A stretch of DNA of 64,000 bases, taken from assembly GCF_001512305.1 (NCBI RefSeq), contig NZ_LNUT01000001.1, positions 199,245 to 263,244 on the forward strand, read 5' to 3'. The position numbers and the translations under genes are program-made. The notes beneath the pieces were generated by a model. That model worked only from the letters and a program-made list of their open reading frames with translations. It was not told where the DNA came from and did not search any database. Source of the DNA: Arthrobacter sp. EPSL27. Lineage in GTDB: Bacteria; Actinomycetota; Actinomycetes; Actinomycetales; Micrococcaceae. Every line of letters starts with the position of its first letter. Positions within the stretch are counted from its first letter, which is position 1. Shown here piece by piece: positions 14,687 to 21,310 of this stretch.

Positions 14687-15181
14687 ATGCAAGAACTCAC
14701 TGCACAGCAGATACGCTCGTCCTTCATCAACGCCAGCCGGTCAGAAGCCGCCAAACTCAACCTGCCCAAGAACTTCGACACCCTGGACTGGGAGAGCCTG
14801 GACTTCCTCGGCTGGCGCGACGGGAAGATGCCGTTGCGCGGCTATCTGGTGCTGCCCGGAGCGAACCGTCCCACCGGGATCATGCTCCGTGCCCCCGAAG
14901 GCGGCGCCAAGAAGAACCGCTCAGTCCTTTGCGAGCTGTGCCGGGACATTTTCTCCGAGGACGACGTGCTGCTCTGGGTGGCCAAGCGTGCCGGGCAGTC
15001 CGGCCGCAACGGCAACACCGTGGGTACCTTGATCTGCGCCGAGTTCGGCTGCTGCCGCAACGTGCGGGTTGAACCTCCGGTAAACGAGATCAACCCGGAC
15101 CCGGCCGCCGTCGTGCTCCGCCAGATCGCCGGCCTGGCCGACCGGACCGCGCAGTTCCTGGACCGGGTCCGGGGAAGCTAG
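14687..15181 (+). CDS. FBP-domain treble-clef zinc-finger protein
   Basis: A 164-residue protein similar to the C-terminal zinc-finger domain of FBP/FusB-type EF-G-binding proteins. The cysteines expected for the treble clef are visible as LCELC (Cys82, Cys85) and ICAEFGCC (Cys117, Cys122/123). The N-terminal sequence MQELTAQQIRSSFINASRSE and FDTLDWESLDFLGWRD are typical of the actinobacterial family. FusB-type proteins bind elongation factor G and help release stalled ribosomes; whether this stand-alone form does so is inference. It converges on the JetC gene with a 24-base gap. Confidence 0.85.
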   Translation: MQELTAQQIRSSFINASRSEAAKLNLPKNFDTLDWESLDFLGWRDGKMPLRGYLVLPGANRPTGIMLRAPEGGAKKNRSVLCELCRDIFSEDDVLLWVAKRAGQSGRNGNTVGTLICAEFGCCRNVRVEPPVNEINPDPAAVVLRQIAGLADRTAQFLDRVRGS

Positions 15182-15205: not shown

Positions 15206-18200
15206 TCAGCGCAGGACGATGTCCACCGGGTTCGCCTCGGAGCGCCACGTGCCCTCCGGGGCGGACCCGGGGGAGATGACCGGGGCCGTCAGCACTCCGG
15301 AACGGTTGGTGCGCTTGTCGCGCAGGATCTCGGTGACGGAGCCGAGGTGCCGGGACAGGTCGATCACGTTTTCCGGAGCCGCCAGCAGCAGCTGGAAGCC
15401 GAACTCATGGAGGGCCTTGATGCCGGCGCCGGCGAATTCCTCCGAGGCCAGCACAAAGGCCTCGTCCATCATCACGGTGCCGTAGGTGGTGAAGCCCTGC
15501 TCGGCGATGCCCAGCTGGTAGCTCAGCGCCGCGGCCATGATGAACGCGGTGAACCGCTGCCGCTCGCCGCCGGACATCGAACCGGTGTCCGCGTGCATAA
15601 AGACCTCGGTTTTGACCGCGCCGGCCTTGCCGGCTCCGTTCTTGCCGGCCTGGCCGGCCTGGCCGGCCTTGGCCGATTGGACCTCGCGGTGCTCCTTGCA
15701 CTGGATGAAGAGGTGCCCGCGGACGTCCAGGACTTCGGCGCGCCAGCGCCGGTCCTCCGGAGTCTGCGAACCGAGCCGCTTCACCAGCGTTTCGAGGGAC
15801 TTGTAGCGGTTGGTGAGCTCGGCGTCGTCGTCCGCCTCAGCCCCGGGAGCCGGGGGGCTGGCCGTCTTGCCCGGGCGCGTGTGCCGCACCTTGAGCGCGT
15901 TCTGGATGGCGTCCTTGAACTGCTTGGCGGTGGCGGGCAGCGTCTGCTTGATGTCGAGTTCCAGGAAGCTGCCCTCATGGAAGTTCACCTCGGAGAGGAT
16001 CCCGTTGAGCGGGAGGATCCGGCTGGTGATGGAGCGGCGTTCCTCGTCCAGCAGGTGCAGCAGGGTGCTGAACGACTCGTGGGTGCGCTGGTTGAAGAAC
16101 TGCCGGAACTCGGCCTCCTGCGCGGGCAGGCCGTCGCTGACAATGGCGTGGTAGCGGGCTTCGAACTCCCCTGCGGCGCCGATCGAGGTGCCGTGGTCCG
16201 CGGAGATCGAGGTGCCCCACTCGCGCACAAAGCCCTCGAAAATCCGGGTGAGCCGCTCCGAGGTGGCCTGGCCGCGGGATTCGGCGGTGTGCAGCTCGGC
16301 GAGGAGCCGGGCGCGGACCTGGTTGGCCAGGTTGTCCAGCTCGTGCATTTCCGTGACGTCGCCGACGCCGCCGAAATCCGCAAAGTACTGTTCCAGCGCC
16401 GTGGCGGTGGCGTCCGACGGCGGCGACTGGGCCAGGCGGGCCCGCGCGGCGTCCAGCAGCGAGTCCGCAGCCGACAGCTGCGAGTCGAGGGCCTTGTATT
16501 CGCTCTGCAGCACGGCCGCGGCTTCGGTGCTGGACTGGTGCTTGGAACGGGCCGCCTCGATGCCGGCACGCAGCGGTTCGAGGTCCGCCTGCGCGGCGAG
16601 GGCGTCCTTGAGGCGCTGCTCGATCCGGGCCAGTTCGTCCGCGGCCACAGCGGCCGAGACCTGCTCCCAGGGCCGGTGGTCCTCGGCCACCCGGCGCAGG
16701 GCCTCCAGCTGCCGGGTCATCCCCTGGTGCGATTCCTCCCGGCTCTGGGCAAGTTCGGCGGCCTTCGCCAGTTCCTGCTGCAGGTCCTCCACCTGGGCCG
16801 CGACGAGCTCCAGCTTGGCGGCGTTGTCGAAGCCGAGGACGTAGTCCTGCCGGCTGGTGAAACGGTCGTCCTTTTCCACCGTGTGGCGGTTCCGCTTGAC
16901 CACTCCGCCCAGGCTCAGGCCCTTGTCCAGGCCGGCGAGCTGGTCCGGGTCTTCGACGCACGGGTACGCGAAGTCCAGGGCGATCCGCTCCCGGATCCAC
17001 TCGCCGGCGTCGGCGCTGGGCCCGGTGCTGAGGATGTCCAGTTTGGTGAGCAGGTCGCCGTCGGCCACATCCTCCACGGCCAGCGCCCCGCCGGCCAGGG
17101 GCTTGGAGACGTCCACGGCGCGCAGGGCGCCGCGCACCGAGTGGTCGTTGAGGTACCGGGTGACGGCGGCGAAGTGCTCGCCCGGGACCAGCAGTGTGGT
17201 GGCGAGGCTGCGCAGCGCGCGCTCGGCGGCCGGGCGCCACTGCTCCTGCCCCTCGGCGAGGTCGATCAGCTCGCCGCCGAACGGCATCCGTTCCTCGGGA
17301 ATCCCGGTGGCCGCCGCGATGGCGCTGCGGTTTTCAATGCTCGACGGCGGCAGCAGGGACTTGCGTGTTTTCAGCGAGACGAGTTCCTGCTGGGCCGCCG
17401 CGAGCTCACGCTTCCGGGTCGCGTGGCCGTCGAAGGCCTCGAACCGCAGCTCCTTGAGGGCCTCCGAGTCGTCCTGCAGTTCGGCCGAGCGGGCGGCCGC
17501 GTGCTCGTGCGCCAGCTCCCAGCCGGCCGCGGTCCACTCCAGTTCCAGGCCGGCGTCGGAGAGCGCCTTGCGGGCGGATTCCTCCACCTGCTGGCGGAGC
17601 TTCAGCCCCACCCGGGCGTTCTCCAGCGACTGTTCGATCGCGGAGATGGCGTTGCCGCCCTGGTTGTTGTAGTCCGCCTCGAGCTGGCGCAGCTCCTTCG
17701 CCAGGCCGTCGCGGATGCCGCGCTCGGCGCCGAGCTCCCTGGCCTTGGCCTGGGCGAGGTCCTTGAACCGGGCCAGCGTCTTCTCGTGGACGGTGACCGC
17801 CAGCTGCTGCCGGTAGGCCTCGAACTCCTCGCCGGCCAGCTCCCGGAGCCGGTTCGCGTCAAGGAGGGACTGGGCATAGTCCTTGTTCAGCCCGGGAACC
17901 GGCGCCAGCTGGTCGCGCTGCTGCCGGACGTCCTCCAGGCGCTGCCGGATGGACATGAGGTTGCTGAATTCCTCGACGACGTCGTCCGCGGCGGCCAGCG
18001 TGGCGGGCGCGTCCAGGACCTGGTCGCGGAAAAAGTTGTTGACGCTGCCGCCGAGGCCCTTGCCGGCCTGGATGACGCGCAGCAGTGGAAGGGCCTGGTC
18101 CGAGTTGATGCCCAGCAGCCGCCGGAAGCGTTCCGCGAAGGCCTTGTGCACGTCAAAGACCTGCGCGTCCGGGAAAATCGCGTCCAGCGCCGCCTTGGTG

Positions 18201-18718
18201 AAGCGCTTCTCCGCGATGCCCTCCAGCGCCGCCAGGTCCAGCGGCTTGTTGTCGATCAGGTAGTACCGCCCGACGCTGGACTCCGTGCCGTTCTTGGGCA
18301 GGTCGAACAGCGCCGACACAGTCACCCGCGTGCCCGCGGCGTTGTCGAAGGTCAGGGCGACGGCGGACCAGGTGGCGCCGGGGCGCTGGAACGCGCTGGC
18401 CGAGCCCTCGCCCACCGCCTTGTCCCCCACCTTGCCGCGCATGTACGTGAACGTGGTGCGCTTGTCCTCCACAGCGCCGCCGGCGCGCTGGGCCGCGGCC
18501 TCGTTGGAGCGCGGCCGCGCATCGAAGACCCGCAGCATGGCGTCGAACAGCGTGGACTTGCCGACGCCGGAGTTGCCCGTCAGCAGGGTGCCGTTGCGGT
18601 CCACGTGCATCGTGTGGGCGCCGTGGAATGTGCCCCAGTTGACCACCTGGACCAGGGCGAGCCGCATCTGGCCGGGGTTGGCGAGGTCTCCCATGGGGAG
18701 CATTGAAGCGATGCTCAC
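15206..18718 (-). CDS. jetC: JetC/MksB-like SMC-family ATPase (Wadjet type I core)
   Basis: A 1170-residue SMC-like ATPase. The N-terminal head has [20 protein letters not shown] and Walker [10 protein letters not shown] (residues 48-56). A long coiled-coil middle of about 700 residues follows (many Glu/Lys/Ala heptads, for example [10 protein letters not shown]). The C-terminal head carries the ABC signature SGGERQR (about 1049-1055) and Walker B TVMMDEAF (about 1081-1088). An Ala/Gly/Lys linker ([18 protein letters not shown]) lies near residue 1020. In Wadjet this ATPase extrudes DNA loops and, with JetD, cuts plasmids. The GTG start overlaps the jetB stop (GTGA). The usual next gene, jetD, is absent: the FBP gene converges 24 bases downstream. 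Confidence 0.92.
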
Positions 18719-19599
18719 TTGGTGTCCTCCGCTTCCGTGGTTGCGTTCGACGCCGACGGCGATGCCGCCCCGGCGTCGTCGTCCGTGTCATCGTCAGCCG
18801 GAGTTGTCGCGTCGCCGTCGAGTTCCAGCAGGGGTTCCGTTCCTGACTGGTCGGTGGAGGCTGCGACGAGGGCTTCGATTTGGGCCGGGATGTCGCCGAT
18901 GTTGTCGAAGGGCAGGGCCAAGGGAAGGGCGTTGGAGATCGTGTAGACCTCGTCCAGCCCGGTGGCGAGGAGGAGCTGGCGGGCCAGGAGCTTGGTGATG
19001 GCGCGGTTGACCACGTCGGAATCTCGCAGGGCGTCCTGGTGGCCGGCGGGCTGGTAGTGGGCCACCAGGTCGGCGATCTCCTCGCGGGTGATGGTGGGGT
19101 CGGTCTGGGCCGTGACGTGGCGGTCCAGGAGCAGCCGGAGGCGCAGCAGCACGATCGTCTCCACCCGGCTGAGCGCCCGCTGCTGGCGCAGGATGCTGGA
19201 GCGGGTGTTGCCGCCGATGGCCTCGGGGTCCACCGGGCGCAGCACTGCCACCTTGCGGTCGTGGTCCAGCTGCAGGGTCAGGAAAAGCTCGGACAGGCGG
19301 CTGCGCAGGATCAGCTGGTTGTCCAGCAGGGTGGTCCAGAGCTTTTCGTCCCGGCCGCCGTCAATGTACGGGCCCTTGAGGAGCTTCACCAGGGCCTGCC
19401 GGACTTTCATCGGGAGCACGCCGGTGTCCCCCGGGAACAGGGCTGCGCCGTCGACGAAGGTGTCCCGCGGGGTGACCGTGAACGGGTCGCTGTGGATGTG
19501 GCCGACCTGCTGGGGCCCCGCGGGCTGCGCCGCGCCGTCGGCTGCCTGGTCCGCGTCTTCCACGGTGCTCTCCGCCGTGTCGTGGGAAAGTTCAGTCAT
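18715..19599 (-). CDS. jetB: JetB/MksE-like DUF4194 protein
   Basis: A 294-residue accessory (kite-like) subunit with a DUF4194 domain. The core runs from [20 protein letters not shown] to about residue 230 and includes [18 protein letters not shown] and [19 protein letters not shown]. The N terminus (about 40 residues) and the Asp/Ala-rich C terminus ([15 protein letters not shown]) look disordered. In the family it bridges the kleisin-like JetA and the SMC ATPase JetC. It starts two bases after the jetA stop and its own stop overlaps jetC. Confidence 0.9.
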
Positions 19600-19601
19600 C
19601 T

Positions 19602-21050
19602 TCAGTCCTTCTTGAGCGTGACCACTGGCAGGTACGCGGTGCGCGTGGAGCCGTCGATCTGTTCGAACTCGACGGTGTCCCAGGCGGCGCGGTCAAAGCC
19701 GGCGCCGCCGTGCAGGGCGTGGGACAGCAGGGCCCGGATCGAGTTGATGTGGCGTTCTTCGGCCGGAAGCTGTTCCCAGGCCTCGGGCAGTGTCGTGGCG
19801 CCGGCGAGGGCCGCGCGGATGGCCTCGGGCCGGGCCTTGCCGGTCCGCGGCGAGCGCACCCGGTCCGAGTCGCTGAACGCGATCGGGTCGGCCAGTTTGG
19901 GCGGGGCCGCGAATTCGTCCGGGTCGAACAGCTTGACCATGGCCAGGGACTCGAAGCCGGCATTGAACAGGACAGGACCGCGGACCAGGCCGGGGCGTTC
20001 CCGTTCGTACGGCAGTGACCGGATGGCCTGTTCCGCCTCCCGGAGGACCTTGCGGAGCCGCACCGACTGGCGGAAGTCGTCGCTCTGGACGTAGGTGTTC
20101 AGGCTTTCGCTGAGCTTGCCGTAGATCCGCTGGATCTGGCTGTGCTGGGCGCGCAGTTCCGCCACCAAGTTCTTCAGGGTCTCGCGTTCCTCATGGCTGA
20201 GGTCGTCCGCGAACTGACGGCTCAGCACCTCGCCGATCGCCGACCGGAACCGCAGCTGCTGCTGCGGGTCTTCCAGGAACGCCGTGAAGGAACGGAAGGT
20301 CCTGCCCTCGGGGCTCTGCCGGAGGCGTTTGTCCGCGTCCAGCACCTGGGCCATTGTGGCGCCCTTGCTCAGGGATTCCTCGATGATCTGGTTCCGGAGC
20401 TCTCCCACCAGCTCCTCGATCCGGTCGCGCATCTTTTTGTAGTCCGCGGGCAGGCTGGCGGCGAGGTCCAGGATGTTTCCGGCGGCTTCGACGGCTTCCT
20501 CGTCGTCGAGCAGGCCGTCGAAATCACCGGAGCTGATGTCCTCGATCAGCTGGCGCCGCTCGCCGATTTCCTCTTCGAGTGACTCCAGCCGGGCACTCTG
20601 GTCCGGGTTGGTCTCGTTGGCCAGCTTCTCGACGTCGCCCAGCAGCGTGCCCAGGCGCGAGCCGTTGAGCGTGGAACGTTCGCTGGAGAGGCTGTCCAGG
20701 AAGGCCAGCACGCGCGCCGCCGGTTCGGTGACCTCATACACGATCTGCCCGGACTGGTTCCGTCGGGTCAGGAAGTTCTTCCGGGTCCATTCGTCACCAA
20801 ACGATTTCCCGTTCGCCGAGCCGCCCAGCCCCGGGTCTTGGCGGCGGAGCTGCTCCAGGAAGGCGTCGACGTCGGCGTGGAACTGTTCCAGCGGCAGCTG
20901 CGGCCGGGTCCGGGTGAAGGACGCCTGCAGCACGGCGATCACCCAGGGCGCAGAGCGCGTCAGCGCCCAGGCGGGCCCCTTGGTGAGGAGTTCGAGGTCC
21001 CGCAGCCGGGCGCTGATGGCGTCGGCGGAGGACAGGGCGGAGCGGGACAC
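19602..21050 (-). CDS. jetA: JetA/MksF-like DUF3375 protein
   Basis: A 482-residue kleisin-like subunit with DUF3375. Features include the winged-helix N terminus ([21 protein letters not shown]), [13 protein letters not shown], the long central helices, then [21 protein letters not shown] and the C-terminal [15 protein letters not shown]. The GTG start at 21050 has a strong ribosome binding site (AAGGAGA); the longer frame to 21116 adds a non-family leader. It is the first gene of jetABC and no gene lies between it and the divergent gene at 21311. Confidence 0.9.
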
Positions 21051-21310
21051 GCACTCTCCTTCAGCTGCCGTGGGGTGTGGATGGGGCAGCGGATAGGTAA
21101 AAACTGCCAGGTACAAGGTTAACGCAGGCCCCGGGTGTCCCCGCAGTCCGGGCAGGTGAGGTTTCCGCGACCACGCCGTGACCTACGCCCCGGTAGCATT
21201 TCGATCCCATATCAAGGGGCGCGGCGCGCGTGTCCGGCGCTGGCTGGCCCAATCCCCGCACCCTACGCTCGGGCTACTGATTCAACCGAAGCGATGTTGC
21301 AGGGGGAAGA

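Follow-up and report, generated by a model that had tools for sequence, protein, structure and literature searches.

The jetABC locus of Arthrobacter sp. EPSL27

We analyzed a stretch of 64,000 nucleotides from Arthrobacter sp. EPSL27 (contig NZ_LNUT01000001.1, positions 199,245 to 263,244; hereafter the window), in which three consecutive genes encode homologs of JetA, JetB, and JetC, the kleisin, KITE, and SMC ATPase subunits of Wadjet- and MksBEF-like complexes (Table 1). The PADLOC models of the type I Wadjet proteins JetA1, JetB1, and JetC1 aligned over nearly their whole length, jetA and jetB are separated by 2 bases, and the overlap between jetB and jetC is 4 bases long. When 11 JetC sequences, one from each genus, were aligned, the G, GVGKS, and T of the Walker A motif, the SGGE-QRF of the ABC signature, and the TVM-DEAF of the Walker B motif were invariant. 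Models, motifs, and spacing agree with a first-pass annotation of the window, which had described three intact and coupled core subunits.

Table 1 Features of the jetABC locus, in window coordinates.
Feature	Position	Strand	Details
jetA (mksF-like kleisin)	19602..21050	-	482 aa from GTG 21050; DUF3375, E 4.9e-88; PADLOC JetA1, 867 bits
jetB (mksE-like KITE subunit)	18715..19599	-	294 aa; DUF4194, E 5e-29; PADLOC JetB1, 521 bits
jetC (mksB-like SMC ATPase)	15206..18718	-	1170 aa; PADLOC JetC1, 1154 bits; Pfam AAA_29 and SbcC_Walker_B
JetC Walker A	18554..18577	-	GNSGVGKS, residues 48-55
JetC ABC signature	15551..15574	-	SGGERQRF, residues 1049-1056
JetC Walker B	15455..15478	-	TVMMDEAF, residues 1081-1088
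FBP_C zinc-finger gene (neighbor, not part of the set)	14687..15181	+ (convergent)	FBP_C, E 7e-57; usual jetD position

The GTG start of jetA has a good ribosome-binding site just 5′ of it (AAGGAGAG), and an alternative TTG start at 21116 would give 504 residues (19602-21116). A Pfam MksE match in the jetB product fell under the family cut-off. The nearest solved structures by sequence were those of Wadjet, for JetC (E 3e-57) as for JetA (E 2e-22); JetB had no match in the Protein Data Bank (PDB) at E ≤ 0.1, and MukB was not among the four PDB matches of JetC at E ≤ 0.01. A fifth PDB row for JetA, a sulfotransferase (E 0.07), looks like a chance match. As the G+C content of the three genes (0.68-0.70) is close to that of the window (0.684), a recent import is not suggested. 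An ordinary Smc is also encoded in this genome (G000:C1:139723-143346).

Absence of jetD from the locus and the genome

No jetD adjoins jetABC in the window. As the first-pass annotation had noted, the place 3′ of jetC is taken by the convergent FBP_C gene, whose 3′ end lies 24 bases from the end of jetC. It had also proposed that a distant jetD might complete the system, and this part did not hold. The whole genome (4.18 Mb in 8 contigs, 99.99% complete) gave no match to either JetD_C (PF09983) or DUF3322 (PF11795), where among 14 control genomes only that of Corynebacterium glutamicum matched, both times. A profile of 13 JetD sequences made for this analysis likewise had no match in the whole genome at E ≤ 1. 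Its three controls all matched strongly, but each had supplied a sequence to the profile, so that this weak control shows only that the search works. A split Wadjet system with a distant jetD was rejected on these genome-wide searches.

A core JetABC and an accessory JetABCD in the genus

By sequence search, the JetC of the window was found in 120 of 121 sampled genomes of the genus, the matches, some of them partial, showing 83-95% identity; the single genome without this core JetC is 68% complete, and all 115 good-quality genomes carry it. JetD_C was present in only 50 of the 121 genomes, leaving 71 without a match, and was never near the core genes: in 27 of the 50, every match lay on another contig, and in the remaining 23 a JetD shared the contig of the core JetC at a distance of no less than 0.95 Mb in contig coordinates. 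The matching co-occurrence of a jetD elsewhere, expected of a normal but split Wadjet system, is therefore missing genus-wide as well. The absence of JetD beside jetABC is not a local deletion.

Many genomes of the genus encode a second, divergent JetC (27-31% identity among the matches listed), and in all seven of the genus loci that were fetched (L148-L154) JetD adjoins such a divergent JetC (27-29% identity). Since JetD sits by its own divergent jetC, the accessory JetABCD is a system distinct from the core JetABC.

The core genes are under strong purifying selection, with median dN/dS values of 0.077 for jetA, 0.063 for jetB, and 0.085 for jetC (from 253 pairwise comparisons of each gene among 23 genus-group loci), which indicates that they are selected to work. 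In the assemblies G026, G030, G033, G053, G096, and G102, JetC is fragmented; the core JetC of G096 and G033 is broken near residue 490-500, by assembly error or a real frameshift.

Distribution across the family

At a threshold of E ≤ 1e-110, JetC orthologs with 39-94% identity to that of the window were found in 116 of 245 sampled family genomes, belonging to 11 of 32 genera, and JetD_C was found in 61 of the 245. From these 11 genera we retrieved 20 loci, including roughly 8 kb of flank on each side where the contig was long enough. All 20 contained jetA, jetB, and jetC, and none contained JetD. When all their reading frames were clustered, only the jetA, jetB, and jetC clusters were common to the 11 genera, arguing against a linked replacement effector running through the group. 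In one genome of genus g90 (L116), jetA and jetB are separated by about 5 kb that contain other reading frames.

A scan of named genomes gave 79 retrieved stretches, from the best 80 of 395 confirmed candidates; at least four of the 79 are identical to loci of the previous set. They include Arthrobacter, Pseudarthrobacter, Paenarthrobacter, Paeniglutamicibacter, Glutamicibacter, Zhihengliuella, and Zafaria. All three genes were present in 78 of the 79, the exception lacking jetA in a stretch that ends early upstream. JetD was found in none of the 79 stretches, 67 of which extend 3 kb or more past the end of jetC. Two records titled Sporosarcina beigongshangi (L221) and Kocuria polaris (L230) bear an Arthrobacter-group JetC, and these labels are probably wrong. 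Among 72,556 plasmid records, 15 had JetC matches.

A quick maximum-likelihood analysis of 61 JetC sequences gave an unrooted tree, with long-branch warnings, in which the 21 family JetC fell on one side of a branch with SH-aLRT support of 100, with no JetD-bearing member among them, and the presence of JetD on the tree required four changes. For the ordinary Smc, a tree was built with one genome per genus, 26 family genomes in all; 4 of 30 genomes lacked a strict Smc match, and 2 of the 32 genera were not included. The Smc tree placed the 11 JetC-bearing genera within one 17-genus clade (support 99), mixed with 6 JetC-lacking genera and requiring six changes. The two trees agree in part; the two JetC types of genus g78 fall on separate branches, so that some exchange of JetC has probably happened. 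The genomes without an Smc match at E ≤ 1e-150 (G175, G323, G329, and G336) all lack the core JetC.

JetC without JetD elsewhere in the order

JetC without JetD is common elsewhere in the order too. A JetC match at E ≤ 1e-40, covering part of the protein only in some cases, was found in 72 of 198 sampled order genomes and JetD_C in 39: 33 genomes had both, 39 had JetC without JetD_C, and 6 had JetD_C only. We fetched 20 loci without JetD near JetC, 18 from JetD_C-free genomes and 2 (G237 and G220) from genomes with JetD_C elsewhere, and no JetD was found in any of the retrieved stretches. In 15 of them (L133-L147, from families f8, f13, f14, f15, and f19), jetA, jetB, and jetC were all present. 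The JetC of 14 of these 15 form one tree group, which has one JetD-bearing member (L164) inside. No fourth gene was common to all the L133-L147 loci, some neighbors being shared only within one family or by a few loci. Family f11 (L128-L132) differs: jetA and jetB are apart from jetC in L131, jetA is apart from jetC while jetB abuts it in L132, and in L128-L130 jetC is present and neither jetA nor jetB was found in the retrieved stretch.

Neighboring genes as candidate effectors

Two kinds of neighboring gene were considered as effectors. Of the 24 genus-group loci, 13 had a homolog of the FBP_C gene in the retrieved flank, and the count over all 79 loci was likewise 13. We rejected this gene as a replacement effector, as it is convergent and flanks only about half of the genus-group loci.

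A RecB-like nuclease of the TM0106 family, which includes a helicase part, was found upstream of jetA, on the same strand, in four genera. Homologs occur in the retrieved flank of 24 of the 79 loci, and in 4 of the 79 the alignment of the homolog ends within about 140 bases of that of jetA. In L112, L206, L209, L213, and L214, this protein of about 1200 residues is encoded close 5′ of jetA, and it lies farther off in other loci. It may be a candidate partner or an old neighbor. Of the 11 representative genomes with JetC, 9 had the homolog, against 5 of the 19 without JetC (Fisher p 0.007). Within the Smc-tree clade, however, the counts were 9 of 11 and 2 of 6 (p 0.11), so that shared descent can explain the co-occurrence. 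Moreover, it was not found at E ≤ 1e-60 in 2 of the 11 JetC-bearing representatives (g5 and g87), and in the genome of the window it is encoded on contig C4 and not on the contig of jetABC; it is thus not a required linked partner.

Comparison with known SMC systems

Like type I Wadjet (JetABCD), the Arthrobacter set has JetA, JetB, and JetC homologs in one operon-like array. It differs in that we found no JetD, the nuclease subunit with DUF3322 and Toprim/DUF2220 domains, and in being core to the genus, whereas a review calls the distribution of Wadjet sporadic (PMC10586767). MksBEFG of C. glutamicum offers the same three subunit types in an actinobacterium with an ordinary Smc but includes the nuclease MksG, which is described as the executing part in plasmid defense (PMC10123090).

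Pseudomonas aeruginosa MksBEF is likewise a second, MukB-like condensin beside Smc and has a chromosomal role there; the combined loss of MksB, Smc, and ParB is lethal in that species (PMC7485682). It comes from a distant phylum and is likened here on its chromosomal role. The genome of the window shows the MksBEF plan, with a MukB-like SMC, a kleisin, and a KITE subunit beside an ordinary Smc, and with intact ATPase motifs. Escherichia coli MukBEF is not known to contain a nuclease. The JetABC of the window shares with it the SMC-kleisin-KITE plan (PMC10512200), but MukBEF replaces Smc (PMC10586767), whereas this JetABC coexists with it.

JetABC as a putative nuclease-free condensin

The first-pass annotation had left three readings: a condensin for chromosome organization, a set served by a distant jetD, and a set with another effector. 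With no distant jetD found and no linked effector throughout the group, a condensin-like role is the best supported of the three. We therefore consider it reasonably likely that jetABC is a housekeeping, nuclease-free condensin of the MksBEF type, apart from the accessory JetABCD, its chromosomal role being suggested by conservation and by the precedent of P. aeruginosa MksBEF. Dimers of JetC would extrude or bridge DNA loops in an ATP-driven manner, like Wadjet JetABC and MukBEF. Since the complex has no JetD, this activity would not end in a cut and could instead help to fold or segregate the DNA of the cell itself, for which P. aeruginosa MksBEF is the precedent. JetABC would then work in parallel with the ordinary Smc, plasmid cutting being left to the accessory JetABCD in some of the same genomes.

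Several points weigh against this interpretation. No JetC match at E ≤ 1e-110 was found in 21 of the 32 family genera, 6 of which lie inside the same Smc-tree clade as the JetC bearers, which means that the set is dispensable over longer times. A JetC ortholog also occurs in two large replicons entered in the databases as Arthrobacter plasmids: its identity is 86.6% in the one of 1.35 Mb and 40.6% in the one of 754 kb. C. glutamicum MksBEFG, the actinobacterial relative that has been characterized, targets plasmids and lacks a chromosome-folding role (PMC7083940). JetABC may also have an unlinked effector, such as the RecB-like protein encoded upstream in some genera, and its chromosomal role is inferred rather than directly observed.

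The most serious of the other explanations, though we regard it as unlikely, is that JetABC still targets plasmids or other circular DNA outside the chromosome and, without cutting it, entraps, silences, or partitions it. Its closest characterized relatives are anti-plasmid systems whose JetABC part senses DNA shape and size (PMC10586767), and plasmids are the sole target of the C. glutamicum complex (PMC7083940). That complex, however, executes its defense through the MksG nuclease (PMC10123090), and the sporadic occurrence of Wadjet (PMC10586767) differs from the presence of this set in 120 of 121 genus genomes. Still less probable is a JetABC working with a nuclease encoded elsewhere, for example the TM0106-type RecB-like nuclease-helicase. 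This protein is encoded in the genome of the window, and its place in the flanks of 24 of the 79 loci, near-adjacent to jetA in 4, and its co-occurrence with JetC (p 0.007) would fit a partner; its absence from the g5 and g87 results, the in-clade p of 0.11, and the separate contig in the window's genome argue otherwise.

Two further explanations are very improbable. JetABC could borrow the JetD of another Wadjet system, and JetD is indeed present in 50 of the 121 genus genomes. This is contradicted for the genome of the window, where no JetD was found; elsewhere, JetD stands by its own divergent jetC in the seven fetched loci, and 71 genus genomes have no JetD_C. The missing nuclease gene and the fragmented JetC of a few genus assemblies might suggest a decaying remnant, which we find the least credible of all. 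Intact motifs, presence in 120 of 121 genomes, and dN/dS values of 0.06-0.085 speak against decay, and the selection test contradicts it.

As to origin, a Wadjet-type defense motor could have turned into a housekeeping condensin by dispensing with its nuclease, and could have done so more than once because JetD-less JetC groups occur in other families of the order; we propose this tentatively, as somewhat doubtful. Since the JetC tree is unrooted and has long branches, JetD loss is indistinguishable on it from a late gain of JetD by others, and the direction is not settled. A review has speculated that Wadjet was the source of MukBEF (PMC10586767). If the proposed change did take place, Arthrobacter strains that encode an accessory JetABCD in addition to the core JetABC would illustrate that defense-to-housekeeping route in living cells.

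Consequences for Wadjet counts

The near-universal JetABC without an adjoining jetD in the Arthrobacter group suggests a DNA-folding complex rather than a weapon. PADLOC nevertheless scores the JetABC of the window as Wadjet. Similarly, the genome paper of Paenarthrobacter lasiusi lists in its Table 6, as Wadjet defense, one JetA, JetB, and JetC set and one type I system with JetD1, and its available text passes over the missing jetD without remark (PMC11719660). A survey of actinobacterial defense reports Wadjet in 42% of genomes, and the term JetD was not found in its main text (PMC10482375). The genus-wide, nuclease-free JetABC is probably not a cutting defense system, so Wadjet may be overcounted in actinobacteria where JetD is not made a condition of the count. 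In a search of titles and abstract openings, with most subscription papers and preprints outside its range, we found no description of the core JetABC set. About two fifths of the genus genomes (50 of 121) hold a JetD gene and the core JetABC in the same cell, which makes the Arthrobacter group a direct test of how defense SMC complexes relate to housekeeping condensins.

JetB motifs and a set on a recorded plasmid

Cross-linking has placed an N-terminal IFDR motif of JetB in contact with JetD (PMC10586767). This motif is not in the JetB of the window. It was not seen at the N-terminus of JetD-bearing actinobacterial JetB either, so that it does not discriminate and is uninformative in actinobacteria as a diagnostic of JetD binding; a single loose match to the pattern, in the JetB of L163, is not N-terminal. 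As for LW versus LF where the JetB domain begins, the JetD-bearing L164 has the LF form, so this difference seems to track the tree. Finally, the 754 kb circular replicon NZ_CP012477.1 (L276), which is listed as a plasmid of Arthrobacter sp. ERGS1:01, has an orthologous set, and a gene annotated as a RecB family nuclease/helicase lies just upstream of it.

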